The notes under the pieces were generated by a model that searched no databases, was not told the DNA's origin, and worked only from the letters and a program-made list of their open reading frames with translations. A program made the translations under genes and the position numbers. Positions 2,906 through 24,174 of a stretch of 25,067 bases of DNA are shown here, piece after piece (position 1 is the first letter of the stretch; every line of letters starts with the position of its first letter). Origin of the DNA: a virus; IMG/VR virus record IMGVR_UViG_3300031785_000053, positions 1 to 25,067 of that record; one strand, written 5' to 3'.

Positions 2906-4351
2906 ATGTCAAAATCTTCACAATTTTCTATAACTAAATGTCAGATAACCGCAGATAGACTTGGTGGTTTTGATAAGAAGTTTTATGATGTCAAAACTCA
3001 AGTAATAGAACTTAATATTTTTGAAAGTTTAGAGAATGCGTTTTTGTCTGGAACTATTTCAATTATTGATGATAAAGGTTTGTATGACATAATAAACTTT
3101 GACGGTACTGAAAGAATTAAAATTGAAATTGCGGGTATGGGTAAAGATGTTGACCCAGTATTTGAAAGAACCTTTATTATGACTGGTATTGATAACATGG
3201 TTAAAGCAAAAGATAATGCAAGTGTTTTCGTCTTTGGATTATTAGATGAACATGCATATATCTCAGAAGTACAAAGACTTAGAAACTCTTATCGTGGTAC
3301 ATTATCAGATATTATTGCAAAAATATCCGCACAATCACTTGACAAAGACATAGATGTATCGTATACTTTGGACGCAAACGAACAAATCATTGACTCGGTA
3401 CAGACTGAAATGCGAGTCATTGTTCCTAACCTACCACCAATGCAGGCTATGAAATGGTTGTTATCAAGAGCAACCACAAAAACGGGTTCTCCATTTTATC
3501 TTTGGTCAACTGTTCACGATGACAATCTAAGACTTGGTAATTTAGATGTTATGTTAAAACAACCAGCATTTAATAGTAAACTACCTTACACTTATAATAG
3601 TGCAAACATTAGTACTGCAGAAACCCAAACTGATTTTGCACAAGGATTTACAATAAAGGCTATTGATGAAAGAGGTTCAGGAGATACTTTAACTCTTGCA
3701 CAAGCGGGTAGTATAAGTGCAGACTATTGTGTCACTAATTTAAATACTGGACAGATATTCATGAAGAAATATGATATCGATACTCTACTGACTAATTTAA
3801 ATAATGAAGGTACAATTGACAAAAGATTTCAGAATGTTTTTGACGATAAGTTTAAATTAAAAGATAAACCTATAAACGAATATCGTAGTTCTATCATACA
3901 TAACATAGTATCAAGTGGAACATATGGAGAATATAAATCATATCACGATGAATACGATAAACCATTACATCTTAAAAAACTAGAAAGTAATGCAATCAAA
4001 AATTTATTATTTAAAAATATGAGAACTGTTGTAGTTCCAGGCACTGCATTCTTTGTGGGTAAAGCTGCAGTGGGTGATATTGTTAATTTAAATATAAGAA
4101 ACGATAATACTGAAAACCCAACGAATGAAGACAATGCAATTGACCAGAATAAATCTGGACATCATCTAATACATGATTTAAGACACACCTTTAGAGAAAC
4201 TTCACATGAAGTGACTATGACTGTATGTAAACTTGAAAGAAAAGGAACTAAAGAGTCCAAGTTAGCAGGTAGGGGTGCGAGAGTTGTATCAGAAATTAAA
4301 AAGAACTCTAACTCTCAAAGAGCAATACTAAGGGGTAAAAGAATAGTATGA
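2906..4351 (+). CDS. 27: Baseplate hub protein gp27
   Basis: This 481-residue protein is called gp27, the trimeric hub ring that holds gp5 beneath the tail tube. Support: VIELNIFESLENAFLSGTIS (33-52) followed by a short DxK turn and IKIEIAG corresponds to the first gp27 tube-like domain. IVPNLPPMQAMKWLLSRATT followed by FYLWS corresponds to the T4 VPDIPW...FVFVWQD segment. A late GTAFFVGKAAVGDIVNLNI strand pair and a HHLIHDLRHTF strand match the gp27 C-terminal tube-like domain. It is longer than T4 gp27 (391). The next gene, overlapping by four bases (ATGA), encodes the gp5-type OB fold, the known gp27 partner. The similarity is structural-pattern level. Confidence 0.75.
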   Translation: MSKSSQFSITKCQITADRLGGFDKKFYDVKTQVIELNIFESLENAFLSGTISIIDDKGLYDIINFDGTERIKIEIAGMGKDVDPVFERTFIMTGIDNMVKAKDNASVFVFGLLDEHAYISEVQRLRNSYRGTLSDIIAKISAQSLDKDIDVSYTLDANEQIIDSVQTEMRVIVPNLPPMQAMKWLLSRATTKTGSPFYLWSTVHDDNLRLGNLDVMLKQPAFNSKLPYTYNSANISTAETQTDFAQGFTIKAIDERGSGDTLTLAQAGSISADYCVTNLNTGQIFMKKYDIDTLLTNLNNEGTIDKRFQNVFDDKFKLKDKPINEYRSSIIHNIVSSGTYGEYKSYHDEYDKPLHLKKLESNAIKNLLFKNMRTVVVPGTAFFVGKAAVGDIVNLNIRNDNTENPTNEDNAIDQNKSGHHLIHDLRHTFRETSHEVTMTVCKLERKGTKESKLAGRGARVVSEIKKNSNSQRAILRGKRIV

Positions 4352-5235
4352 GTTTTGATAATCCCATTCAAAGTGAGTTTTATGGAGATAATGTCCGTTG
4401 GTTTATTGCAACTGTCATAGATGCAAGTCCACCTTTTGGTTTTGAAGGACGAGTAAAGATAAGAATACACGGATTACATTCTCCAGAGACATACTTATTA
4501 CCACAACAAGATTTGCCTTGGGCCCAATGTGTTCTTCCTACTACCGAAGGTGGAATGTCTGGTATTGGTAAAGTACCTAAACTACAACCAAACGCACTAG
4601 TCTTTGGTTTCTTCATGGACGGAATGCAATCACAAACACCCGTTGTAGTCGGTTCATTACCACACATAGAGATACCCACATATTTACAAGACCAACAACA
4701 AAATGAAGATGTTGGAGACGATAGTAAACCTTCAAATGTATTTCAAAGTTTTGCGGGTTTCTTTGCACCTAAATTTGATGTTGATGATGAAAACAATATT
4801 TCTACTGGAAGACAACTTGCATTTGGTGGTAATCAGGATAGTCGAGTGAAATACGCAGTTCAGTTCTTCATAAATATAGGATACACAGAAAACCAAGCAC
4901 TTGCATTGACTTCTGGTTTGTTTGCAAAATCTGGTATGGCTACTGGTGGGTCTGGTCTTTGTGATTGGGAAGAAACTAGGTTTAGAAGATTAAAAATGTT
5001 TAGTGATTTGTTTCATAGGTTTACCGTGCAAGTATTTTTTGTTGCATTTGAATTAAGAACTTTTAAAACAGATGCAAATATAAAATTACTTGCAACAGAA
5101 AAACTCGATGCAGATGACGGTGCATGTCAGGTAGTTGCAAAAGATTATCTTGATAGTAGAAGTATAAAGGAACGAGAAGAATTGATTGGTTTAATAGAAG
5201 ATAAAGCAAGAGAGTTAAAAGAAGATAATGGCTAA
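4348..5235 (+). CDS. 5: gp5-type hub protein: OB fold plus degenerate tail-lysozyme domain
   Basis: The first 110 residues closely follow the T4 gp5 OB domain: VRWFIATVIDASPP, GFEGRVKIRIHGLHSPE, QQDLPWAQCVLPTT, GGMSGIGKVP, then FGFFMDGMQSQTPVVVGSLP. Past an acidic linker, residues 165-290 resemble a phage_lysozyme-like tail domain of the PF18013 type: VQFFINIGYTENQALALTSGLF, a short loop, GSGLCDWEETRFRRLKMF, then helices. In that family the residue before SG is the catalytic Glu. Here the motif reads AKSGM, with K194 in that place, and the GxxQW Gln is Asp. The domain is probably inactive as a muramidase. T4 gp5 is one 575-residue polypeptide; here the needle lies in a separate gene. The stop overlaps the next start by eight bases. 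OB assignment is firm; the lysozyme-domain assignment is moderate. Confidence 0.82.
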   Translation: MSFDNPIQSEFYGDNVRWFIATVIDASPPFGFEGRVKIRIHGLHSPETYLLPQQDLPWAQCVLPTTEGGMSGIGKVPKLQPNALVFGFFMDGMQSQTPVVVGSLPHIEIPTYLQDQQQNEDVGDDSKPSNVFQSFAGFFAPKFDVDDENNISTGRQLAFGGNQDSRVKYAVQFFINIGYTENQALALTSGLFAKSGMATGGSGLCDWEETRFRRLKMFSDLFHRFTVQVFFVAFELRTFKTDANIKLLATEKLDADDGACQVVAKDYLDSRSIKEREELIGLIEDKARELKEDNG

Positions 5236-7096
5236 CACTCCAGAAAGAACAAGAAGAAATCTACAAGGTCATATAAACAAACACCTACAAGGTTTAAGTA
5301 GAGAAGATGCACAGTCTGCTTTAGAACAAGGAGACTTTGAAGAAGTTCGTGAAATACTACAGTTTGAAAGAAATAACATGGTAAATAAGTATTGGGACGA
5401 TTTAGAGAAAGAAGGTTATGATGTTCCAACAGAAATTGAACCACTTGAAATTACAGAGTCTTATACGAATGATGTAAATCAAGGTGAGGGTGCAATGCAA
5501 ATTGTACCAGAAGAAGCATTCTCTACCGAAACTTTAATAGACCCTAAGAAAGAATTACTTACTGCGGGAACGGTAAACTTTACTAATAACTTTGCAACCA
5601 TAACAGACGGTACTGGAACACCCACTGCAACAATTACTGGGGGAGATAGTAATCAACCCATATCTGATATAGTTGGTGATTTAACTGGTATGCCTTCATT
5701 AAAAACTGAAAAGAAAAAGTTTGGTATGAATTTAGTGGGTTCATCAAGTCCAGAAGGTATCAAAGCCGCAATGGACAAAGGTCAAGATTTATTAGGTAAA
5801 ACAAATGATGCAATCAAGACAGCACATGATGCGGCTGGTGGTCTTAAGTTTGTAAAAAATAATTTAGGAGATGATGCAAAAAACAAAGCACTGTCTGCAA
5901 TTAAAAGTAAAATAAGTGGTTTACCAGATGTCAACAAAGCACTTCCTAATCCAGAACAGTTAGCAGAAAGTATTGAAAATCAAACTGGTAATAAACTATT
6001 AACTGCAAAGACTAAAGTTGCAAAAGCAAAACTAACAAAGATTGCATCTGTAGTTGCACTAGTAGGAACTGTAGCTGCATTCAAAGATAAGTTATCAGGT
6101 TTTGTTGATAAAGCAAAAAGTTTTGTAAAAGATAATTTAGCTAAAGTTGCAACTGGATTGATTGTTGGTGGTGTTATACAAGATATTGCAGAAAAAGTCA
6201 ATAGTGGTATTAAAAACAAAGTGACTGAAAACTTAGGTGCAGAACTACCTGCTAAAGTACAAGAAAAGATTAATGAAAAAGTTGCAAAAGGTGATAAAAA
6301 AGGTGCAGCTGAAGAGATTAAAAAAGCCACTGGTAAAATAGATGCTGAAGGTAAACCTACTCCAGAAACTAGTCAAGATGACTTAGACCGTATTGATGAT
6401 TTAGCAAATGAATTAAATCCAACTATATCAGGTTCATTAGTTAGAGATGCAGATTTTTATGGAGAACCAGTAAAACTGGGAGATAATATACCTAAGTGGG
6501 CTGGAGAAAGAACTGGAGATGAAGCATTTACTTATGTCGCATCTGTAGAAGAACTTAATTCAGAAATGATGTCAATTTCAAGACGCATTTCAGAAGTAAT
6601 AATACATGCAACTGAGACCGCAGAAAATAAAAATATAGGTTCAATTGAGATAAACAATATACATAAACAACTTAAACATGACGGTATTGTTTATCATTAT
6701 GTTATAAGAAGAGACGGTAGATTACAAAGAGGTAGACCCGCAGACCGTGTATCTGAACACACTGCGAAGGAGAGTCATAATAACTTCTCTTTGAGTGTTG
6801 CATTGGTTGGTGGAATAAATCTTCCTACGGGTGATGTAAACCCCTTAGATAACCGTTCTGAGACTGCATTCACAAGAGAACAATATACCACACTCGAAAG
6901 ATTTTTAGAAGCATTTTTTATGAAGGTGCCTGGTGGACTGGTATTTGGACACAATGATATAGAGATTGATGAACTAGACCCATACTTTGATGTAAAAGAT
7001 TATGTCGAAAAAACCTTTAGAAAGACTTATGATAGAGTAGGTAATACTTTTGAATTTGAAGCACTAGACCCAGATGACACGGAGATAAATAGTTAG
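5228..7096 (+). CDS. Hub-associated tail protein with C-terminal T7-lysozyme-like amidase
   Basis: This 622-residue protein has an N-terminal helical segment (1-60), a low-complexity Thr/Gly region (95-145), a long Ala/Lys-rich helical region (about 150-390) and an Amidase_2 domain (about 450-605). The amidase part follows T7 lysozyme almost motif for motif: SEVIIHATE with H460, GIVYHYVIRRDGRLQRGRP with Y489, LSVALVGGINLPTG, FTREQYTTLERFL, then FGHNDI with H575 and ELDPYFDVKDYVEK with D584. H460, H575 and D584 fit the zinc ligands (Asp in place of T7 Cys130, as in AmpD). Y489 fits T7 Tyr46. The Lys two residues before the third ligand in T7 and AmpD is E582 here. Predicted role: cleaving the amide bond between MurNAc and the stem peptide during penetration. 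Context between the gp5 OB and needle genes places it in or near the hub. No signal peptide. Confidence 0.8.
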   Translation: MANTPERTRRNLQGHINKHLQGLSREDAQSALEQGDFEEVREILQFERNNMVNKYWDDLEKEGYDVPTEIEPLEITESYTNDVNQGEGAMQIVPEEAFSTETLIDPKKELLTAGTVNFTNNFATITDGTGTPTATITGGDSNQPISDIVGDLTGMPSLKTEKKKFGMNLVGSSSPEGIKAAMDKGQDLLGKTNDAIKTAHDAAGGLKFVKNNLGDDAKNKALSAIKSKISGLPDVNKALPNPEQLAESIENQTGNKLLTAKTKVAKAKLTKIASVVALVGTVAAFKDKLSGFVDKAKSFVKDNLAKVATGLIVGGVIQDIAEKVNSGIKNKVTENLGAELPAKVQEKINEKVAKGDKKGAAEEIKKATGKIDAEGKPTPETSQDDLDRIDDLANELNPTISGSLVRDADFYGEPVKLGDNIPKWAGERTGDEAFTYVASVEELNSEMMSISRRISEVIIHATETAENKNIGSIEINNIHKQLKHDGIVYHYVIRRDGRLQRGRPADRVSEHTAKESHNNFSLSVALVGGINLPTGDVNPLDNRSETAFTREQYTTLERFLEAFFMKVPGGLVFGHNDIEIDELDPYFDVKDYVEKTFRKTYDRVGNTFEFEALDPDDTEINS

Positions 7097-7098
7097 TC

Positions 7099-8574
7099 AT
7101 GACTACTAAGAAAGACAATCTAGAAAATAGACTCAAACAACTTGGAGAAGGACAAGAGGAGAGTATCGGAGTACCCGAAGACGGTTTTCAAGACCCAACT
7201 GGTGAGTATCCAAAAAGAGATTACAACTTTGGGTCAGGAATAAACAAAGCTGCAAGGGGTACAAAGGTAAATGACCTTTATGTAAATGGTGGTGCAGAAG
7301 GTGTCCCACTAAATATTGAAGAACAAAGACCTTCTCGTTTTCCTTTTAATCAAGTAGATGAAACTCCTTCGGGACATGTTGTGGAATATGATGACACGCC
7401 TGGTGGGGAACGTATACTAATTAAACACCGTAAAGGTGCGGGTGTAGAAATGCGAGCAGACGGTTCGGTAGTTATTTCTGCAGTCAATAATAAAGTAGAA
7501 GTGACTGGTGGAGACCAAACTCTTATTGTTGAAGGTCATGGTAGTTTGGTATATAAAGGTAATTTAAATCTAACCGTGACTGGAGACTACAATGTTGATG
7601 TCGGGGGTAATTATAATGTGCAAGTTGGGGGTAATCACATAGAAGGTATCTCAGAGAACCATAGAACCTTTGTGACCAAGAATTCTGAATATGTGACCAA
7701 AGGTACTAAGTCAACCAAAACAATTGGTAAACACACCGACATTATGTTATCAGATAATAATCAATATGTCAAGGGTAATCAAAGAAACTGGATAGAAGGA
7801 GAGAATGAGATTGCAGTAGAGAAAGATATGTTTGTATCTGCAAAGACTTCTCTTGCAATGACTAGTGAAGTATTTAACGCAACGGGTATTAAACAAGTAT
7901 CTATCTTTGGAATGAAAGGTTCGATAGGTGGTAAGAATGTAAACTTTACTGGAGATGTCTTTATGGGTAATGCGGGTGCAAAACCGTTTACCAGTGGTGC
8001 ATCATTCTACGGGTCTTTTCATGGACAAGCAACGGAGTCTATCTTTGGATTGTTTGCATATAAATCTGAACGTGCTAAGTTTGCAGAAGTATCTGATTTA
8101 ACACACTCACAATCATATGCAGAGGCCGCTACATCTGGTAGTACACTTGGACATAGTGGTGGTGCTCCAGATATTGCAATAGACCAAGAAACTAACAAAC
8201 CATTAGGGCCACCACCGATACCAGATATCGTTGCAGCTTACGGAACAGTTGGAGAGTTTGCAATACGTGATATATCAATTGATAATGAAGACAAACTTAA
8301 AAATGCACTTGACTTTAGTGATGACTATCTAGGGTTCTTTGATAGACACCCAACAACTCAGGAGATTAGGTCAAAACTCAGGACAGAAAGTAAAAGAGAT
8401 GAACTTCTGGGACAAATGGTTGCGGAAGGTAGAGTGAGTAAAACATCATTTAGAACAAAACCAAAACGTATTGGTAGAGTCAGTGGTATTGAACCAACAT
8501 CTAGGTTTGGTTATACTGCGATAGGTAATGCAATGGAGAATAGGGGTAAAAGGTTTACTCCGAAAAAACGATGA
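7099..8574 (+). CDS. gp5 C-terminal-type beta-helix needle protein
   Basis: This 491-residue protein carries the T4 gp5C parts without OB fold or lysozyme. Residues 28-40 (DGFQDPTGEYPKR) match the gp5 linker GFSDPTGQYPRR. Residues 91-106 (SGHVVEYDDTPGGERI) match the strand entering the T4 needle. Residues 115-250 show the gp5C periodicity of about eight residues: VEVTGGDQ, LIVEGHGS, NLTVTGDY, NVDVGGNY, NVQVGGNH. This is an intertwined triple-stranded beta-helix used to puncture the outer membrane. Unlike T4 gp5, the helix is followed by about 190 further residues, ending in a basic RGKRFTPKKR tail. A two-base gap from the amidase gene and a four-base overlap with the next indicate co-translation. 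Identification of the needle is confident; the C-terminal part is unknown. Confidence 0.85.
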   Translation: MTTKKDNLENRLKQLGEGQEESIGVPEDGFQDPTGEYPKRDYNFGSGINKAARGTKVNDLYVNGGAEGVPLNIEEQRPSRFPFNQVDETPSGHVVEYDDTPGGERILIKHRKGAGVEMRADGSVVISAVNNKVEVTGGDQTLIVEGHGSLVYKGNLNLTVTGDYNVDVGGNYNVQVGGNHIEGISENHRTFVTKNSEYVTKGTKSTKTIGKHTDIMLSDNNQYVKGNQRNWIEGENEIAVEKDMFVSAKTSLAMTSEVFNATGIKQVSIFGMKGSIGGKNVNFTGDVFMGNAGAKPFTSGASFYGSFHGQATESIFGLFAYKSERAKFAEVSDLTHSQSYAEAATSGSTLGHSGGAPDIAIDQETNKPLGPPPIPDIVAAYGTVGEFAIRDISIDNEDKLKNALDFSDDYLGFFDRHPTTQEIRSKLRTESKRDELLGQMVAEGRVSKTSFRTKPKRIGRVSGIEPTSRFGYTAIGNAMENRGKRFTPKKR

Positions 8575-9689
8575 GCATATTAGTAGTAGACCCAGTATAT
8601 AATCCTAATTTAGTTGCAACAATTACGTCTGCAACAAAGTTAGGGCCTGGTATAACCATTGCAAAGTTTCTTGGTGCATATGGAGATAGAACATCTTTTA
8701 ATCACATAGGTACTAAGAAAGAAAGAGAAGCGATTGCAAGACAACTATATCTACAAGCAGAAATGATGCGTATGATAAATGGTAATATAGATTTATTCAA
8801 CAAAGTAAGATTGGTGGTAAGTGAAGGTATTTATCGTGCAGGCCCAGATGAAACTCTATCAGGTGATACTCTTGCAAAGAGTAAAGGTGAATTAGTATAC
8901 TATCAGGTGATTGGTAATGACGGTATTGTTGATTTGGAAACAACATTTGATGTTGCAGAATACTGGAAAGACTATGCAGACTATGGTGAAATAAGATTAG
9001 ACTACGACTCTTATAATCCAGATAATACTCTTACTGCACAGATTGGAGTGCAAATGCCTACTATCGGAGAGGACTTTAATGTAAACTTTACCAGAATGAT
9101 TAAAACTTTCTTCAATGGTAAACTACAATCTGACGGTGAGTTTATTGAAGTATTAGAATACTTTGATAGAAACGATAGAAGAGTACAAAGAAACTTATCC
9201 AGTAAAATTACTTACGATACGTCTGGTCAAAGTTCACATGGAAGAACCCTACAGAACCAACCACGAAATTTAGAGAAACAATTAGAAGCAGAAGAGACTA
9301 TTGACAATCTTGCGGATACTCGTCCAGTAGGAAGTGGTCATGAGTTAACTAAAGTTCCAGAAAACTTAGATATAGTACAAGAGTCAGTAGAAAATGTAGA
9401 ACAAGATACAAAAGAAGTTTTAGCTGGAACAAGAAAATTAATTGACGGTAATACTGGTTTAGAAGTAGACCCTAATTCAAAAAGAGGTCAAGAATTAATT
9501 GATGCAAATAGAAAGTTAGAACAAGCACAGGCTGACTCCCGAAGAAGAGAACTTGCAAGACAACGAAGAGTCGAAGAAAAGAGATTAGCAAGTTTAACTC
9601 CAGAACAAAGAAGAGAAGAAAAAAGAATTGCATCATTCTATGATAGTATTGACGGAAGTTTAGGTGGAGACGATGAAGAAGATTTATAA
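8571..9689 (+). CDS. Hub-cluster protein; possible degenerate M15-peptidase fold with charged coiled-coil tail
   Basis: I do not recognise this 372-residue protein with certainty. Residues 25-165 hold ITIAKFLGAYGD, a helix EREAIARQLYLQAEMMRMIN, VRLVVSEGIYR (79-89), ELVYYQVIG, a helix FDVAEYWKDYADYG and YGEIRLDYDSY...LTAQIGVQMP. The order resembles the M15/VanY D,D-peptidase core (SGYR, SxHxxGxAxD, helix, DQLIxE, WxHV). The His/Asp zinc-ligand motifs are not present, so if related it is catalytically dead. Residues 230-372 are polar, with a strongly charged Arg/Glu helix around 310-355 and an acidic end. It overlaps the needle gene by four bases and is the last gene before the gp25 promoter, which suggests a structural hub role. 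The M15 relation is an inference from motif spacing. Confidence 0.8.
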   Translation: MSILVVDPVYNPNLVATITSATKLGPGITIAKFLGAYGDRTSFNHIGTKKEREAIARQLYLQAEMMRMINGNIDLFNKVRLVVSEGIYRAGPDETLSGDTLAKSKGELVYYQVIGNDGIVDLETTFDVAEYWKDYADYGEIRLDYDSYNPDNTLTAQIGVQMPTIGEDFNVNFTRMIKTFFNGKLQSDGEFIEVLEYFDRNDRRVQRNLSSKITYDTSGQSSHGRTLQNQPRNLEKQLEAEETIDNLADTRPVGSGHELTKVPENLDIVQESVENVEQDTKEVLAGTRKLIDGNTGLEVDPNSKRGQELIDANRKLEQAQADSRRRELARQRRVEEKRLASLTPEQRREEKRIASFYDSIDGSLGGDDEEDL

Positions 9690-15367: not shown

Positions 15368-18300
15368 ATGTCAACAACTTTTAATAAGTCAACTTTTGAA
15401 ACAACATATAAAGACGACTTTGACAGTGCAGATAATTTTCATAGAATATTATTCAACTCAGGTCGTGCGTTGCAAGCAAGAGAACTTACGCAAATGCAAA
15501 CTATCATTCAAGAAGAAATTGCAAGGTTTGGTAGGAATATATTTAAAGAAGGTGCGGCTGTAAACCCAGGCGGGCCTAGTGTTGACAGAGGTGCGGAATT
15601 TGTAAAATTAGATACAAGTGTAAATACCTTACCAACCGATACTTCTACTTTACTTGGATTAGAATTTACGGGTGCAACTTCAAGTATTAAAGCAAGAGTT
15701 ATTAGAGTAGAGACCGCAAGTGGTTCTGACCCCGCAACTTTATATGTACAATATACTGATACAAACACAAGTGGATTAGCGGGTTCTGCACCAGTTAGAT
15801 TTAGTGCGGGTGAAACTATAAACTCTGGTGGAACTGCACTATCAGTTCAAACAACAAATACTATTGCAAATCCAGCAACTGGTCAAGGTACAATACTTCA
15901 TGTATCTGGGGGAGACTTCTTTGTAAGAGGACACTTTGTGTTTGCACCACAACAATCCTTAATTATTTCAAAATACACTACAACTGGAACTGCAACTGTT
16001 GGATTTACTATTGCAGAAGATATTGTCACGTCAGGAGATGATACATCACTCTTTGATAATCAGGGTGCAACTCCAAATACTGCATCGCCTGGTGCAGACC
16101 GATACAGAATTAGATTAACTCTTGTTAACAAAACAAGTGTCACTGCAAGTGATAACTTCGTATACTTTTGTGATATAGTAAACGGAGAAATAGAAGAAGT
16201 TGTCACTGGTACAGAAGATTACAATAAAATTAATGAAGTTCTTGCACTCAGAACAAAAGAAGAGTCAGGTAATTATGTTGTCCGTCCATTTAGAGTGACT
16301 TTTGAAGATGACTCTGCAAATGGTAGTACATCTAACTTAATTGCAAATATATCTGCGGGAACAGTATATCTAAACGGTTATCGTGTAAATAAAGAAAGAC
16401 CAAGTAAATTAACTATTTCAAAACCCAGAACTACAGTCACAAATAACAACGAAGCAATTGGTGTAGACTATGGTGCATATCTGGTATTTAAATCAGACGG
16501 TGGTTCAACTGTAGGGACTGCAGCTGCACTTGGAAATTTTGAATTAGTTAATTTATTAACGGGTAGTACAGTTATTGGTACTGCAAGGGTTAAATCAATT
16601 CAAGTAGTAAACAGTGAAGTTCGTCTTTACCTAATGGACATTCAGTTGAAAGGGCCAGGTGGTTCTAATCGACAAATAACAGATATTACTTCTGTAGAAA
16701 GACACGGAGATTTCGACACCGCACCACATAGATTTGTAGTTGAAACTACGAGTAGCACTGCACTTATACCAAGTACTGCATTATTTAGAAATATAGGTGG
16801 TAATGATTTACTATTCCCGACTCAAAGACCAAGACCAAAAAGTATTTCAGATGTTTCATTCCAAGTATTAAGACAGATTGATGACTCTGCAAATGCTCCT
16901 TCTGCGGGTACACACCCGTCAATTAGTTTATCTTTATCTGCAACTGGAGAAACATTTACAGATGTAGGTAATTGGATTATTACGAGTGCGGTCACTGGAG
17001 AAAGGGTGACTAACTTTAGTGTTAGTGGAACTGGAACACAAAGTGCAACTATTAGTACTACTACTAATCATGCTAATGGTGGTTTAGACTCTGGTGCAAA
17101 ACATAACATCTTTGCAAGAATAAACAAAGGAAATGCAACTCGAAGAACAAAAACCTTGACAGAAACTACAATTACTGGTACAATAGACTCAGACGGAGAA
17201 AACTTAAGATTTGTTAAGATACCGTATGCAGATGTCTATGAAGTAATATCAATCAAACAAACTGACTCGGACGGTGCAGATTTATCTCACAACTTTACTT
17301 TAGATAATGGACAAAGAAAAGATTTCTATCAACATGGTAGATTAGTACTTAGAAGAGATACCACTCCACCAAGTGGAACAATATTTAGTAGATTAAAATA
17401 CTTTGCTCACGGTGCAAGTGGAGACTTCTTCTCTGTAAACTCATATGACGGTACTGTAAATTACGAAGACATACCAGACTTCCAGATTAGTGGAAGAAAG
17501 AGTATTAACCTTCGTGAAGTAATTGACTTAAGGTCAATAAGAGACAGTGACGGTGTTGGTATTAGACATCAATACTTAGTACAAGACTCTAGTGGTTCTG
17601 ACTCAGACGGTTATGCAAACCCAATCACTGGAAACACTGGGGTTGCAAGTTCATATACTAAAAAGGTTGAAATACCAGTTGCGGGTCAAACTATTACTGC
17701 AGATATAGAATACTACTTACCAAGAGCAGATAAGATTGTAGTTAACAATGAAGCAGAATTTAGTGTAGTGTCTGGTAAAGACGGATTTGCATTACAACAA
17801 CCACCTACACCAGAAAACAATTTATTATTATTTAATTTAGCGATAAATGGTTATGGTGTAAATGACTCAGACTTGACTTTAGGTGTATCTCAATATAAAA
17901 GATTTAGAATGCAAGATATTGCAAGAATTGAAAAAAGACTTGATGACCTTGCAGAAACTACTGCACTAACACTTTTAGAACAAGCTACAGACGCAAGATT
18001 AATTTTAGACTCGGACGGTGTGTCTAGAACCAAACTAGGTATTCTTGCAGATAACTTTAAAGACAGATTATTGTCAGACCACGAAGACCCAATGTATCGT
18101 GCGTCAATAAATCCAACAACAAATACTTTACACCCTGCTTTCTCAAATAATCAAGTACCTTTGATTTACGACTCTGCAAAATCAACAAACACAATTATTA
18201 AGGGTGATAACATTTATCTTCACTATACAGAAGACTCTGCAATATCACAAAGAATGATATCAGGTGTTGAGAATGTAAACCCATTTGCAGTTATAAGTGG

Positions 18301-20698
18301 AGAAGGACATATAACTTTATCACCAACAAGTGATAACTGGGTTGATACAGAAACTAGAACTGTACCCGCAGTACCACAAGTAAACAATGCATTTCCAGAA
18401 GTAAATGTTGCGGCTATACCAACATTCGGAAACACTTTAGGTTTGATGCCTCCGACTTTTGCACCCGCATTAAATGGTGGTGCATTATGGAACTGGGGTG
18501 GAATAGATTTAACTGCAGTAAATATTGGTTGGGGAGCAACAGTAGATTTAACTGGAATAATGGTTGGTGACACCAATCCTTTTGGTACTGGTGGTGGAAA
18601 TACTACATCTATAGGAGATTTCGGAACAAGAGTTGTAAATAATAGTGTTATAAATGAAGTAGTAGGAGATAGAGAAGTATCTTTGACTGCTATTCCATTT
18701 ATGAGACCAAGACTTATATTCTTCCGTGCAGAAGGTCTAAGAGCAAACACTCAATACTTCCCATTCTTTGACGGAATTAAAGTAGATGACTATGTAAATA
18801 CTACGGTTAGTTTTACAAATGTTGCGGGACAGACTTACACTGGAAACCAATATAGAGGTACAACAGTACACCCAAGTGGAAGTACAACTATTGTCACAGA
18901 CGCAAATGGTAAAGTAGACGGTTCATTTTTATTACCAAATAATGACTCGTTAAGATTTAGAAGTGGAGAAAAAGAATTTAAATTACTAGATATTTCGGTA
19001 GATGACCAATCTTCTGCAACTTCTCGTGCAACTGCAATCTTTACGAGTAGAGGTACTTTAGAAACTACGACAGTCACACTTAGACCACCAGAACCAGTAC
19101 CACAAGTTAATGTGAACTGGATAGACCCGCTCGCACAAACCTTTAGGGTTTCTGCACCAAGTGGTATGTTTGTGACTAAGATACAAACTTATTTTAAATC
19201 AAAAGATGCAACTGTACCAGTAAGACTTGAATTGCGTCCAGTAGTAAATGGTGCGCCTAGTTCAGATGATATCTTACCAGGCTCAGTAGTGGTTTTACCA
19301 CCAAGTGCGGTACAAACTGCAGTAAGTCAGACACAAGCATCTGCATTGTCTAGTCCTACCACATTTACTTTTGATGAACCGATATTCTTAGAACATGATG
19401 AAGAATATGCAATCGTATTATTATCCGATTGTAATTCATATGAGGCATATGTTGGAGAAACTTATGAATTCCAACTTGGTTCTACTGAAAGAAGAATTGA
19501 CAGACAACCAAGTTTAGGTTCATTATTTAAGTCACAAAACGGAACAACTTGGACACCAGACCAAACTAAAGACCTTGCGTTTGATTTATTTAAAGCACAG
19601 TTTACCACTGCGGGTGGAACAGTAGTATTTGAAAACTCAGTAGTTCCAGATATGTTGTTATCAAATAATCCAATATCAACTGACTCAGGTAGTAGAACCA
19701 TTTCAGTTCTTGCACCAGACCATGGCTTTATCGTAGGAGACACAGTAAGTATTACTGGGTTTGACTCTGCGGGTACGGGTCTTTTAAATGGTATAGACTC
19801 TGCGGGTAGAGTAAATGACTTTACACATACGATTACTGCGGTAGACGGATTTGGTTATCAAGTAGTGCTTAGTGACTCTGCAACTGCAACTGGTTTTGTT
19901 GGTGGTGCAAGAGTTAAGTCTTCAAGACAAATACTTTTTGATACGGTAATACCACAACTTGATACTTTAGTTCCACAAGATACTAATATCACAGTAGATG
20001 CGAAGTTTACTACTGGTAGGTCACTTGCGGGTGCGGAAACTAGAGGTACAAAAGATACTGCATTCTCTGGAGACCTTGCTATAGGACAAGAAAACGATTT
20101 CTCGGCACCAAGAATAATTGGAACTACTGCATTTGAAACTGCAAACATAGGGTCAGGAGAAAAATCAGCAACAATTCAAACTGCATTCTCTACAACTCGT
20201 GCAGATGTATCACCAGTAATTGATTTACAAAGAGCTGGTATGATTACTATATCAAATAGAATAGATAATCAAGTATCATCTGGTGCGACTGCGGGAACAA
20301 GTAATACTCCCATATTCTATGTTGGAGAAGACAGTGACGGTTCAAGTTTAAGTAAACACATTACTAAAGTAGTTAATCTTATTGAACCCGCACTAGGTCT
20401 AAGTATATTAGTAAATGCAAGAAAACCAAGTTCTGCTGATTTCCAAATTTGGACTAGAGTTGCAGACGCTGATGAAAATATATTTGAAAAACCTTGGAAA
20501 CTCGGAACTCAAATAAATACTGTTTCTAGTAATGAATTAAGTTTCAAAGATTATGAATTTGTTCGTGAGTTTGTTTCTAACAGCGGAAGTAATGACCCAA
20601 CTAGTTTTATGTCCTATCAAGTTAAGATAGTAATGACATCTACTAATTCATCAACACCACCATTATTTAGGGACTTGCGTGTTATCGCAACTGCATAG
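15368..20698 (+). CDS. Giant DUF4815-type tail/baseplate structural protein
   Basis: This 1776-residue protein has an N-terminus, DNFHRILFNSGRALQARELT (residues 22-41) then QMQTIIQEEIARFGRNIFKEG, that is the signature of DUF4815-type proteins found in marine T4-like phages and other tailed phages. Residues 97-151 hold a TGATSSIKARV...FSAGETI module shared with gp53 and gp8. The central part is long and Ser/Thr/Asp-rich. Around 1250-1330 come VSFTNVAGQTYTGNQYRGTT and FRSGEKEFKLLDIS. The C-terminal third has WIDPLAQTFRVSAPSGMFVT, RLELRPVVNGAPS and a SLFKSQNGTTWTPDQTKDL segment, the usual closing beta-sandwich region of these proteins. It may take the place of the peripheral baseplate parts (T4 gp7 N-terminus, gp10) or anchor fibres; this is inferred from size and position. 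AGGAATA precedes the ATG. Confidence 0.82.
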   Translation: MSTTFNKSTFETTYKDDFDSADNFHRILFNSGRALQARELTQMQTIIQEEIARFGRNIFKEGAAVNPGGPSVDRGAEFVKLDTSVNTLPTDTSTLLGLEFTGATSSIKARVIRVETASGSDPATLYVQYTDTNTSGLAGSAPVRFSAGETINSGGTALSVQTTNTIANPATGQGTILHVSGGDFFVRGHFVFAPQQSLIISKYTTTGTATVGFTIAEDIVTSGDDTSLFDNQGATPNTASPGADRYRIRLTLVNKTSVTASDNFVYFCDIVNGEIEEVVTGTEDYNKINEVLALRTKEESGNYVVRPFRVTFEDDSANGSTSNLIANISAGTVYLNGYRVNKERPSKLTISKPRTTVTNNNEAIGVDYGAYLVFKSDGGSTVGTAAALGNFELVNLLTGSTVIGTARVKSIQVVNSEVRLYLMDIQLKGPGGSNRQITDITSVERHGDFDTAPHRFVVETTSSTALIPSTALFRNIGGNDLLFPTQRPRPKSISDVSFQVLRQIDDSANAPSAGTHPSISLSLSATGETFTDVGNWIITSAVTGERVTNFSVSGTGTQSATISTTTNHANGGLDSGAKHNIFARINKGNATRRTKTLTETTITGTIDSDGENLRFVKIPYADVYEVISIKQTDSDGADLSHNFTLDNGQRKDFYQHGRLVLRRDTTPPSGTIFSRLKYFAHGASGDFFSVNSYDGTVNYEDIPDFQISGRKSINLREVIDLRSIRDSDGVGIRHQYLVQDSSGSDSDGYANPITGNTGVASSYTKKVEIPVAGQTITADIEYYLPRADKIVVNNEAEFSVVSGKDGFALQQPPTPENNLLLFNLAINGYGVNDSDLTLGVSQYKRFRMQDIARIEKRLDDLAETTALTLLEQATDARLILDSDGVSRTKLGILADNFKDRLLSDHEDPMYRASINPTTNTLHPAFSNNQVPLIYDSAKSTNTIIKGDNIYLHYTEDSAISQRMISGVENVNPFAVISGEGHITLSPTSDNWVDTETRTVPAVPQVNNAFPEVNVAAIPTFGNTLGLMPPTFAPALNGGALWNWGGIDLTAVNIGWGATVDLTGIMVGDTNPFGTGGGNTTSIGDFGTRVVNNSVINEVVGDREVSLTAIPFMRPRLIFFRAEGLRANTQYFPFFDGIKVDDYVNTTVSFTNVAGQTYTGNQYRGTTVHPSGSTTIVTDANGKVDGSFLLPNNDSLRFRSGEKEFKLLDISVDDQSSATSRATAIFTSRGTLETTTVTLRPPEPVPQVNVNWIDPLAQTFRVSAPSGMFVTKIQTYFKSKDATVPVRLELRPVVNGAPSSDDILPGSVVVLPPSAVQTAVSQTQASALSSPTTFTFDEPIFLEHDEEYAIVLLSDCNSYEAYVGETYEFQLGSTERRIDRQPSLGSLFKSQNGTTWTPDQTKDLAFDLFKAQFTTAGGTVVFENSVVPDMLLSNNPISTDSGSRTISVLAPDHGFIVGDTVSITGFDSAGTGLLNGIDSAGRVNDFTHTITAVDGFGYQVVLSDSATATGFVGGARVKSSRQILFDTVIPQLDTLVPQDTNITVDAKFTTGRSLAGAETRGTKDTAFSGDLAIGQENDFSAPRIIGTTAFETANIGSGEKSATIQTAFSTTRADVSPVIDLQRAGMITISNRIDNQVSSGATAGTSNTPIFYVGEDSDGSSLSKHITKVVNLIEPALGLSILVNARKPSSADFQIWTRVADADENIFEKPWKLGTQINTVSSNELSFKDYEFVREFVSNSGSNDPTSFMSYQVKIVMTSTNSSTPPLFRDLRVIATA

Positions 20699-20700
20699 TT

Positions 20701-20910
20701 ATGAGTTATATAAAAGTAGAAGGTAGACCTAATTTAGTAAGAGACACGGAAAGTGGTGCGATACTAAATACTAATAGAACTGCAGTAGAAAACTACTATA
20801 AGATAAGAGAAAAACATAGGAACAAAGATAAACAAATTGCACAAATGCAATCTGATATCGATGAATTAAAACAACTAGTAAAACAATTGGTAGAAAAAGA
20901 AAATGGCTAA
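20701..20910 (+). CDS. Small coiled-coil protein between baseplate and fibre genes
   Basis: This 69-residue protein has an N-terminal VEGRPNLVRDTESGAILNTN head (6-25) and a C-terminal heptad-patterned helix (about 36-66) with repeated I/L spacing (QIAQMQSDIDELKQLVKQLV). I recall similar short proteins from cyanophage T4-like genomes but know no function. It begins two bases after the DUF4815 gene and overlaps the next fibre gene by eight bases, so it is embedded in the operon and probably translationally coupled. The layout suggests a trimeric connector or assembly helper for the neighbouring fibre; that is a guess. Confidence 0.8.
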   Translation: MSYIKVEGRPNLVRDTESGAILNTNRTAVENYYKIREKHRNKDKQIAQMQSDIDELKQLVKQLVEKENG

Positions 20911-22399
20911 TAAACATACTGTCACAGCAATAACAGATAATTTAAGTCAGTTAATTACTAACCTGAACCAAACAGCAAAAGATGTTGGTGGTACGGATAG
21001 GTTGACAACTACTCAAGACTCTGATATAGTAGGTGCGATAAACGAACTAGATGCAGAAATAGGTTCTGTCACTCTAACTACAACTGCACAAACACTTACG
21101 GGTGCAATCCAAGAAATATTTCAAGGTGGGTTTGAAGAACTAGATTTAACTTTAGACTCAGTAAAAAGTTCAACTGGACTTGCATTAGGTGGATTTACCG
21201 ACTCAGAAAGAAGTAGTTTAGGTAAAGCACTTAACGCATTGTCAAGAGATATACAGATACTTGACTCCGATATGGTTGGTTTACTCGGAAGGGACTCTGG
21301 AGATAGTGGAAGAGCAATAGACCTTTTAACAACCACTGCAAAAACTATTGTCGGTAGTGTAAACGAACTAGATGCAGAAATAGGAACTTTAAGTGGTCTG
21401 ACTACTGGAAATAAATCAACTGTAGTTGCGTCTATCAATGAACTAGACTCTGATATAGGTGCATTAACAAGTCTTAATTCAGAAGTTAGAGACTCTAACA
21501 TTGCAGCTACAATTAATACATTAAATACAAAAGTAAATAATAGAAATAGATTTATAGAATTTTTTACTGATAGTGCAGCTGGTGGAGATAGTGCGGGAAG
21601 TAGAATAGTTGCAGATAGTGCTAATGATTTTGTAAAATTTAGTGGTGGAACTAATCTAGAAGTAGTAGTCGCAGACTCAGATAATGCAAGAACAATTACA
21701 TTTAATCACACTAGTGTTGGTGCAAGTTCTGTAGATAATTCTGGTAATACTTTTATTCAAGACTTAACAATTGATGAAAACGGTCACGTCACGGGAACTA
21801 CAAGTGCAGCTGCTACATCTCCGAACAACGCACAACACATAATGGCCGCTGGTGGTGGTCTTTTAGTCAACACACCTGGCGGAAGTAATTTTACTGCAGA
21901 TGCATCGACTAATATCACAACAACTTATTCACTTGACTCCGATTTAAGAGGTAATGTTCACTTTATCGGCCCAGATGCTAATGACTTTTTACACTTTACA
22001 GACTCAAGTTTAGATGTCTTTATCAATACTCAGAAAGTGGGAGTTTTTTCATCAAACGGAGACTTCCATGCAAACAATGATATTGTTGCATTCTCAACCA
22101 CTGCGTCAGACATGAGATTGAAAACTGATATTGAACCAATCACAGATGCACTTGAAAAGATAAATGCATTAACTGGTTATACTTTTACTTACGATTACAA
22201 TGGAAGAAAGTCTGCGGGATTACTTGCACAAGAAGTAGAAGAAGTTTTACCTTCTGCAGTAGTTGATAAAAAACTAGTATTTAAAACAGATGATAATCAA
22301 GAATACAAAACTTTGCAGTATGACCAAACAATTGCATTACTGGTGCAATCAATTAAGGAGTTGAAATCAGAAGTTGATATTCTTAAGAGGAATAAATAA
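20903..22399 (+). CDS. Tail fibre with C-terminal peptidase_S74 chaperone
   Basis: This 498-residue protein has an N-terminal half containing repeated helical units with the pattern GxINELDxEIG (about residues 47-58, 154-165 and 179-190). A beta-rich shaft (about 210-390) follows. The C-terminal domain starts at SDMRLK (S402) and continues ALEKINALTGYTFTYDYNG, SAGLLAQEVEEVLPSAVV, YKTLQYDQTIALLVQSIKEL. This is the intramolecular chaperone auto-processing domain (peptidase_S74), known from endosialidases and T5 L-shaped fibres. In that family the chain cuts itself just before the Ser of SDxRLK after trimerisation. Ser402 and the following Lys are present, so release of a domain of about 97 residues is expected. 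Probably a receptor-binding or side fibre. Confidence 0.87.
   Translation: MANKHTVTAITDNLSQLITNLNQTAKDVGGTDRLTTTQDSDIVGAINELDAEIGSVTLTTTAQTLTGAIQEIFQGGFEELDLTLDSVKSSTGLALGGFTDSERSSLGKALNALSRDIQILDSDMVGLLGRDSGDSGRAIDLLTTTAKTIVGSVNELDAEIGTLSGLTTGNKSTVVASINELDSDIGALTSLNSEVRDSNIAATINTLNTKVNNRNRFIEFFTDSAAGGDSAGSRIVADSANDFVKFSGGTNLEVVVADSDNARTITFNHTSVGASSVDNSGNTFIQDLTIDENGHVTGTTSAAATSPNNAQHIMAAGGGLLVNTPGGSNFTADASTNITTTYSLDSDLRGNVHFIGPDANDFLHFTDSSLDVFINTQKVGVFSSNGDFHANNDIVAFSTTASDMRLKTDIEPITDALEKINALTGYTFTYDYNGRKSAGLLAQEVEEVLPSAVVDKKLVFKTDDNQEYKTLQYDQTIALLVQSIKELKSEVDILKRNK
21040..21063 (+). repeat. Direct repeat copy 1 in fibre gene
   Basis: A 24-bp stretch beginning AAACGAACTAGATGCAG is identical to the copy at 21361-21384, 321 bp (107 codons) downstream in the same frame. 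It encodes the NELDAEIG core of the helical repeat. Confidence 0.9.
21361..21384 (+). repeat. Direct repeat copy 2 in fibre gene
   Basis: Identical in frame to 21040-21063. A third, diverged copy at about 21437-21459 reads AATGAACTAGACTC and encodes NELDSDIG. Exact DNA identity against a diverged third copy suggests recent duplication or conversion between copies 1 and 2. Confidence 0.9.
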
Positions 22400-24174
22400 T
22401 GCCTCAAATATTTGGTACTTCGGGTTTAATTAGTTTAGATTTATTTAAAGGTAAATCTGCTCAGTCATCAGATACTTTTAGTAGATTTCTTGAATTTGGT
22501 TTTAGAGAAAATAATGTTGGTTTCCAAAAACCAATAGTAAATACAGCTACTAATAAACTTAATAAAACAACTAATATTAGTATTAATGATTTTAAAGATG
22601 AAGCACAAATTGATAAGCGACTGACAAGTATTCCATTTCTAAGATTTACTCAATACTCAGGATTTTTGCCCACACTTCCAGGCTACCAAGGTGGTGTTAT
22701 TCAAAGACGAGTAAGAATATTTGGTAGTTCAATAAACTCAGCTTTTGGAGATATCGCTCCCAGTAAATTTAATATGGACAAATCTTCAATGTTTGAACCC
22801 ATAGGTTCATTGGGTAAGGTAGAAAATTACCAAGAAAAATTAAACTCTTCGGGGTTTCCATTCGGAAATAATTTTAATTTAAACACTTCCGAGTTTCGTG
22901 AACTAGTTGGTAAATCTGACGGTGAAGCAAATCAAAAAATGGGAGATTACATAAACGCAAAAATGTTTTTTAGTGAAGGTCAGGATATAGCGTTTCCTTT
23001 AAGACAAGGTGGGTCGGTAAGAGGTTTTAACATAACACCATATTTTGGTGATAGAATAGAAACTTCTTTAGCAAATGGTTATAAAGCACCTTCAATCACT
23101 TCCAGTGCAGAAACTTATTATAATGACCTATATCAAGGAAATAATACTGCATCTGAAACAGTAGGTCTTGATTTTAAATTCGTAAATGAAGCGGGTGGAT
23201 TAAGATGTTTTGTAAGACAAAACAATGGGCCAAGTTTCAGTAGTTTAGTTAATCGTACTAATACTTCTGGCGATACTCACGATTTTAAATTTACAAAAGA
23301 CAGACTTTGTTATGTAAGTCAGTATCAGTCTTTTTCCCCACAGGCAGATAATAAAATTAACAATGTTTCTGGAACATATTTACCTTTTTATTTTCTACCA
23401 GACTTACCTAATGGAGTAGATACTTTAAGACTTAAATCACTAACCGAAGTAGATGCTAGAAATTACGTTGCGTTATCTCATGACCCGCAAATTGCAAGAG
23501 CTGCTCTTGTTAATACATCAGTTGCTCAAGTAAATTCACCTTCAGCGGTAAGTGTACCAACACCAAGTTCTTCAAACAATGAAAGTGGTGAGACCTTTAT
23601 AGGTATTGATACCCAACAAACTGGTCTGGGACTTGGAAGTGCTTTTGGATTTACACAAAAAATGACTGCAAGTACCAATAATAAAAACGGTATAAACCAC
23701 CTTAGAGTTTTTAGACTGCAATTACAAGCAACTAAAAGTAATGTAAGTAGAGGACAAGAAAGAACTGTTTTAAACTATTTCTTTGGACTAAACACTAAAA
23801 TTGAACTTTATGATGTTGGTGCGCCTCTTGTCATTGCGTTTAATCCTATTTTTGATTTTAGTGGTATAAACTTTGGATTTGGAGATATATTTGCTTGGAC
23901 AAATGTGTATGGATTTGCTATATCTGGTGGTTATGGTGGATATTCGGATACTCGTTTAAAAGATAACATTAGATTTGTTCATAGACCAAATAGACACAAT
24001 GTTTATACATGGGATTGGAATGATTTAGCAAAATCAATTGGTGCAGATAAACAACCTAATTACGGAGTTCTTGCAGATGAAATAGTTAGCACTAACCCAG
24101 AAGCATTAGAAAAAGATGAAAACGGTTATTGGAAAGTAAACTATTTTAAACTTAGACAAAACAAGAAAGAATAA
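22399..24174 (+). CDS. Second tail-fibre-like protein with short S74-type C-terminus
   Basis: This 591-residue protein opens IFGTSGLISLDLFKGKSAQS and is largely beta-predicted and Asn/Ser/Phe-rich, without obvious repeats or known enzyme motifs. Around residue 465 a Gly/Phe-rich stretch (FGFGDIFAWTNVYGFAISGG followed by YGGY) leads into SDTRLKDNI (S516 at the S74 catalytic position). VYTWDWNDLAKSIG, YGVLADEIVSTNPEALEKDE and VNYFKLRQN follow. This is the S74 order (SDxRLK, aromatic strand, GxLAQE-like helix, YxxL), but the domain is only about 76 residues and lacks the long terminal coiled coil seen in the preceding gene. The start overlaps the previous stop by one base (TAATG) and has AGAGGAA upstream. 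Likely a second fibre or its tip; receptor unknown. Confidence 0.8.
   Translation: MPQIFGTSGLISLDLFKGKSAQSSDTFSRFLEFGFRENNVGFQKPIVNTATNKLNKTTNISINDFKDEAQIDKRLTSIPFLRFTQYSGFLPTLPGYQGGVIQRRVRIFGSSINSAFGDIAPSKFNMDKSSMFEPIGSLGKVENYQEKLNSSGFPFGNNFNLNTSEFRELVGKSDGEANQKMGDYINAKMFFSEGQDIAFPLRQGGSVRGFNITPYFGDRIETSLANGYKAPSITSSAETYYNDLYQGNNTASETVGLDFKFVNEAGGLRCFVRQNNGPSFSSLVNRTNTSGDTHDFKFTKDRLCYVSQYQSFSPQADNKINNVSGTYLPFYFLPDLPNGVDTLRLKSLTEVDARNYVALSHDPQIARAALVNTSVAQVNSPSAVSVPTPSSSNNESGETFIGIDTQQTGLGLGSAFGFTQKMTASTNNKNGINHLRVFRLQLQATKSNVSRGQERTVLNYFFGLNTKIELYDVGAPLVIAFNPIFDFSGINFGFGDIFAWTNVYGFAISGGYGGYSDTRLKDNIRFVHRPNRHNVYTWDWNDLAKSIGADKQPNYGVLADEIVSTNPEALEKDENGYWKVNYFKLRQNKKE

Follow-up and report, generated by a model that had tools for sequence, protein, structure and literature searches.

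A predicted zinc amidase of the T7 lysozyme type between the halves of a split gene 5 in uncultured T4-related viruses

Introduction

The spike of phage T4, the textbook example of a cell-puncturing device, carries a muramidase as its enzyme. T4 gp5 (gp5*-gp5C, with gp27) is encoded by a single gene that harbors a GH24-type lysozyme, and it is cleaved between Ser351 and Ala352 (PMC3004832). Several other phages carry hubs of related design. In Rhizobium phage RHph_I1_18 and Ochrobactrum phage vB_OspM_OC, an OB domain is followed by a Phage_lysozyme2 domain, as in the viruses described here. Unlike the latter, both hubs retain the catalytic Glu of that domain, contain extra M15 peptidase domains, and have no adjoining amidase gene. 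The gp5C part of RHph_I1_18 is also a separate gene; in vB_OspM_OC (L200, 3933-6359), one hub gene comprises the OB domain, an M15 peptidase, the Glu-intact Phage_lysozyme2 domain, and a C-terminal gp5C-like part. Methylophilales phage Melnitz EXVC039M (Kyanoviridae) likewise has an OB gene separate from its gp5C gene, but the enzyme modules in both genes resemble VanY/M15 peptidases. In Melnitz-3 EXVC039M (L015, 3862-6905), the OB gene gives a weak VanY-type match and the gp5C gene weak VanY/M15 matches. Phage C48C1 (OQ984149; L014, 7980-10173), the closest annotated phage by gp6, has a 196-aa OB gene devoid of an enzyme domain, followed by 76-aa and 451-aa genes.

The locus analyzed here shares with T4 gp5 the OB domain, the beta-helix domain, a gp27-like neighbor, and the baseplate gene neighborhood. 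It differs in that the OB and beta-helix domains are encoded by separate genes, the enzyme domain belongs to another family and is inactivated, and an amidase gene lies between the two. The amidase, in turn, resembles T7 lysozyme (gp3.5) and other Amidase_2 phage endolysins in its predicted fold, its two histidine ligands, and a catalytic-site tyrosine, with about 30-36% domain identity. In contrast to these endolysins, its third ligand is Asp and not Cys, Glu replaces Lys128, the domain is attached to a 440-residue carrier, and the gene lies in a spike operon.

Sequences and models

The window, i.e., the whole stretch of DNA analyzed, comprises 25,067 nt (positions 1 to 25,067 of IMG/VR record IMGVR_UViG_3300031785_000053); a megablast of all of it against phages returned no match. 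Viral contigs were scanned with an amidase-domain profile and with full-length alignments, and at least 557 stretches encode a relative; the loci fetched are the best 80 per scan of these matching stretches. The clade set consists of 79 distinct amidase domains from 167 fetched loci of uncultured viruses, many of which overlap the same contigs. These domains were aligned with 14 T7-like phage amidases as references. The model of the whole amidase protein was obtained with AlphaFold2 on the clade alignment and is weak, with a mean pLDDT of 45 and values of roughly 50-80 in the amidase domain. The dN/dS values compare the window with seven relatives.

Table 1. Positions of genes, domains, and active-site codons in the window.
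Feature	Position	Strand	Remarks
gp27-like hub gene, expected gp5 partner	2906..4351	+	481 aa; phrog_350 3e-43
gp5 N-terminal (OB) gene	4348..5235	+	OB domain about residues 13-110; lysozyme-like tail about 144-295
Inactivated Phage_lysozyme2 domain	4777..5232	+	PF18013 in relatives; catalytic Glu absent clade-wide
Codon of Lys194, position of phi29 gp13 catalytic Glu45	4927..4929	+	Alignment with five Glu-intact references
Amidase gene	5228..7096	+	622 aa; start within OB gene end, 8-base overlap
Carrier region, residues 1-439	5228..6544	+	Fast-evolving; low pLDDT; dN/dS 0.20-0.51
Amidase_2 / T7-lysozyme-type domain	6575..7042	+	About residues 450-605; Pfam, PHROG, PDB, model; dN/dS 0.06-0.13
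His460, putative zinc ligand 1	6605..6607	+	78/78 clade domains covering site
Tyr489 (T7 Tyr46)	6692..6694	+	Tyr 71, Phe 8 of 79
His575, putative zinc ligand 2	6950..6952	+	79/79
Glu582 at T7 Lys128 position	6971..6973	+	Glu 69/79, Lys 0/79
Asp584, putative zinc ligand 3	6977..6979	+	Asp 79/79; Cys in T7-like phage amidases 14/14
gp5C-like beta-helix spike gene	7099..8574	+	491 aa; phrog_430 3e-30, aligned to C-terminal part of profile
Conserved gene after gp5C in clade	8571..9689	+	No Pfam/PHROG match; present in relatives

Organization of the split gene 5

Gene 5 is split in the window, because the OB domain lies in 4348-5235 and gp5C in 7099-8574, with the amidase gene between them. The OB domain and the beta-helix of the T4 gp5 spike are thus both found, but in a set of three genes instead of in a single chain with a lysozyme between them. 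The gp5C assignment relies on the PHROG match and on a Gp5_trimer_C match of 24.1 bits, which is below the Pfam cut-off of 30.9. The family to which the gp27-like protein is assigned, phrog_350, also contains a vB_OspM_OC protein that its depositors assigned to T4 gp27 (1WTH_D); a direct BLASTP comparison of the two proteins is weak (E 0.026). The amidase had been described in an earlier note on this DNA as built into a baseplate hub protein; it is instead the product of a separate gene between the OB and gp5C genes.

The gene order gp27-like, OB, amidase, gp5C, gp25, gp6 is kept in relatives, including those whose amidase proteins are only about 31% identical overall. Among the 222 fetched loci in which both genes occur, the amidase frame directly adjoins the OB gene in 220; the remaining two have a broken OB frame. 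In some cases the OB and amidase genes seemed to be separated by about 455 or 1082 bases, but these gaps were traced to the requirement for ATG starts and discarded as artefacts, the frames being continuous. An OB gene lacking an amidase neighbor occurs in 16 fetched loci. In 15 of these the locus stops no more than 1.4 kb from the OB gene; the other is L281, which is related to the Rhizobium phage hub and retains the lysozyme Glu.

The OB gene of L041 (3562-4540) is broken within the lysozyme-like domain into ORFs 3562-4074 and 4250-4540, which may reflect misassembly or the insertion of a mobile element. Two relatives (L008, about 7911-8630; L026, 6549-7256) have an additional ORF between their amidase and gp5C genes, with a PP-loop-like SGGSDTALLLYLL motif and a C-x2-C-x2-C cysteine cluster. 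This ORF is weakly QueC-like (phrog_1550, E 0.0055 for the L026 copy).

The OB gene and its inactivated lysozyme domain

The OB gene is recognized by Gp5_OB (1.6e-6, Pfam) and by phrog_1922/430 (about 1e-24). Its tail (residues 144-295) shares the fold of the phi29 gp13 tail lysozyme (lysozyme domain 3csq; Z 14.6, rmsd 2.3 A, 137 residues). Pfam places Phage_lysozyme2 (PF18013) in 21 of 26 clade OB proteins at a lenient threshold, with a best value of 7e-12, and does not report it in the window's own OB protein even at E 1. The domain was therefore detected only through divergent relatives and structure.

The suggested catalytic residue of phi29 gp13 is Glu45 (PMC10394673). The alignment places this Glu in gp13, RHph_I1_18, Bacillus phage Bobb, a Cellulophaga phage, and Twort, and the vB_OspM_OC protein, read directly, has it as well (KQESGF). 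In contrast, it is absent from every examined clade OB protein that covers the site, and Lys194 takes its place in the window. Three Glu-intact T4-type hub genes were found (RHph_I1_18, vB_OspM_OC, and L281), none of which has an adjacent amidase gene. This pattern fits a replacement of muramidase by amidase, although the association reflects few independent changes, as both the Glu loss and the amidase may date to one ancestral event.

The amidase domain and its carrier

The resemblance to T7 lysozyme reported earlier for residues 450-605 is borne out by three kinds of match. Pfam Amidase_2 (PF01510) covers residues 452-582 with an E value of 6.3e-12 and 46.4 bits, above the gathering cut-off of 26 bits; PHROG amidase family 822 matches at 4e-29; and T7 lysozyme from the PDB aligns with residues 455-603 at an E value of about 1e-12. 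The AlphaFold2 model is consistent with the T7 lysozyme/PGRP fold, as T7 lysozyme 1lba is its top hit (Z 13.8, rmsd 3.5 A, 137 residues), followed by many PGRP and AmpD chains. Alignment and structure prediction thus both support a T7-type domain. The placement of such a zinc amidase in the hub region, where T4 carries a muramidase, is likewise supported, but the inactivated Phage_lysozyme2 domain in the upstream OB gene had been overlooked.

With dN/dS values of 0.06-0.13, the amidase domain is under strong purifying selection. The values for the carrier, 0.20-0.51, lie above this range. Carrier residues 1-444 have no credible relative among 50,697 phage records (best E 0.3); weak matches to tape-measure proteins, none below E 0.3, were rejected as chance. 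A transmembrane anchor is unsupported, the maximum hydropathy being 1.59. The 450-residue helical carrier described earlier was not confirmed, because the model is weak overall and the pLDDT is below 50 at residues 63-325.

Active-site residues across the clade

The HMMER alignment pairs H460, Y489, H575, E582, and D584 of the window with H17, Y46, H122, K128, and C130 of T7 lysozyme, respectively. The Amidase_2 zinc site is composed of two His and one Cys or Asp, which H460, H575, and D584 would supply. Of the residues that characterize the T7 lysozyme subtype, the equivalent of Tyr46 is present (Tyr489), while those of Cys130 and Lys128 are replaced by Asp584 and Glu582. The claim that the three ligands and Tyr489 are in place is confirmed by this alignment and by their conservation in the clade. 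The correspondence with T7 holds for the positions of the ligands but not for the identity of the third, which is Cys in T7 itself. His575 is kept in all 79 clade domains and His460 in all 78 that cover its site, and the third ligand is Asp in every clade domain, as opposed to Cys in all 14 references.

Position 582 is occupied by Glu in 69 clade domains, by Ser in four, by Val in two, and by His, Asp, Met, and Phe in one each; Lys occurs in none, and the references have Lys (13) or Thr (1). The replacement of Lys128 by Glu noted earlier is thus correct and general in the clade, and with these counts in distinct domains it is neither chance nor a sequencing error. Glu582 is 87% conserved, with an entropy of 0.84 bits. 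Since the adjacent loop positions 580, 581, and 583 are highly variable (2.6-2.9 bits), Glu582 is either retained for a reason or inherited under constraint. Arg501, which is specific to the clade (79/79), was examined as a possible replacement for the lysine and rejected, as it does not co-vary with Glu582. The position of Tyr489 is occupied by Tyr in 71 domains and by Phe in eight (L031, L033, L114, L115, L117, L118, L119, and L189). A small divergent subgroup lacks Arg503 and His511 while retaining the zinc ligands.

The residue at the Lys128 position varies among characterized enzymes, being Lys in mesophilic phage enzymes and Thr in PGRPs (PGRP-LB) and Ts2631 (PMC4573324). The active clostridial endolysin LysB has Ser, and its change to Lys abolished activity (PMC8430805). 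Since activity is compatible with Lys, Thr, or Ser at this position, Glu at 582 is by itself no sign of an inactive enzyme, and the suggestion that it lowers activity is not established. An E582K comparison would be hard to interpret, given that published exchanges in which Lys was lost or introduced here (K128T, T158K, and S132K) reduced or abolished activity (PMC4573324, PMC8430805).

The conserved ligands and the purifying selection favor a working zinc site, and Glu582 together with the Asp ligand probably marks a variant active site. It is conceivable, though we hold the idea only tentatively, that Glu582 and the Asp zinc ligand take over the role of Lys128 or Thr in a rearranged site. 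This site would be a distinct Amidase_2 catalytic variant, evolved for use in an injection device in which the original muramidase domain had been inactivated. By way of speculation, Glu582 might act as an acid/base, with the zinc ion and Tyr489 stabilizing the transition state.

Role of the amidase

The reading that we favor, with some reserve, is that a T4-type cell-puncturing device was rebuilt, with an amidase on its own carrier protein taking the place of the muramidase activity. It draws on direct observations, namely, the homologies, the gene order, the loss of the lysozyme Glu, the conservation of the zinc ligands, and the purifying selection on the amidase. The single gene 5 of T4, whose product joins OB domain, lysozyme, and beta-helix, corresponds here to three adjacent genes: the first encodes the OB domain and the inactivated Phage_lysozyme2 domain, the second the carrier with the predicted zinc amidase at its C terminus, and the third the gp5C beta-helix. 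The amidase would ride on the hub or spike in the virion and cut the MurNAc-L-Ala bond at entry, in place of the lost muramidase. Because the catalytic residue of the lysozyme is lost and a zinc amidase gene stands beside it, infection by these viruses probably involves cleavage of another bond in the bacterial wall. Points against the proposal are the low confidence of the amidase model, the few independent changes behind the association of Glu loss and amidase, and the Tyr-to-Phe change seen in eight of the 79 domains, which abolishes the activity of T7 lysozyme and PGRP-LB.

The last point bears on the possibility that the domain is a pseudoenzyme which keeps the zinc ion and the groove without cleaving and docks the spike on peptidoglycan, entry then being mechanical or achieved by another enzyme. 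T7 Y46F and PGRP-LB Y78F are inactive, yet Y78F PGRP-LB still binds peptidoglycan (PMC8124813), and the lack of Lys in all 79 domains and the loss of Arg503 and His511 in the divergent subgroup point in the same direction. The corresponding Phe variant of clostridial LysB retains 42% activity (PMC8430805). Non-catalytic PGRPs are described as devoid of zinc or its ligands (PMC8124813), whereas the ligands are conserved in essentially all members of the clade. Moreover, Glu582 stands out from its very variable neighbors, and family members with Thr or Ser at the equivalent position are active. A pseudoenzyme is unlikely.

That the amidase is an endolysin, acting in lysis from within or in both entry and lysis, with an incidental location in the baseplate operon, is also unlikely. 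It is the sole Amidase_2 in each of eight large contigs with the amidase gene, one of 149 kb, and a search of nine contigs detected no GH24 lysozyme, while one of four contigs detected neither an M15_4 peptidase nor an SLT domain; these contigs are possibly incomplete, and the families looked for were Amidase_2, GH24, M15_4, and SLT. However, the long N-terminal region is unlike the short T7-type endolysins fetched for comparison, and the gene sits between the gp5 halves in every informative locus, both of which favor a structural role. An ordinary T7-type amidase, in which the replacement of Lys is a simple loss or error with no consequence for grouping or function, is very improbable, for although active enzymes naturally vary among Lys, Thr, and Ser at this position (PMC4573324, PMC8430805), Glu occurs in 69 of 79 diverse domains and always together with a third ligand that has changed from Cys to Asp.

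Implications for T4-type spikes

On the reading of a rebuilt spike, muramidase activity appears to have been lost from the hub in a large and widespread group of uncultured T4-related marine viruses, and an amidase to have taken a place in the same gene cluster. Since gene 5 is divided, the spike parts would be made separately and not via cleavage of a precursor. No description of this split-spike and amidase arrangement was found in the searchable literature, subscription journals being largely outside the search. Together with the M15 and Phage_lysozyme2 versions in other phages, this arrangement suggests that the enzyme in T4-type hubs is exchangeable, and the exchange perhaps matches the chemistry of the host wall. 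For the divergence of gp5 in pelagimyophages, matching to the host wall has been proposed in general terms (PMC7029224). The clade also provides a naturally occurring set of Amidase_2 domains whose active site is unusual, and in which the function of the Lys/Thr/Ser/Glu position can be studied.

Other genes of the window

Beside the baseplate wedge genes, positions 15368-20698 encode a 1776-aa protein with DUF4815 that is strongly similar to PHROG 358. Two consecutive genes (20903-22399 and 22399-24174) encode proteins ending in Peptidase_S74-type chaperone domains, the second of which scores slightly below the Pfam cut-off.
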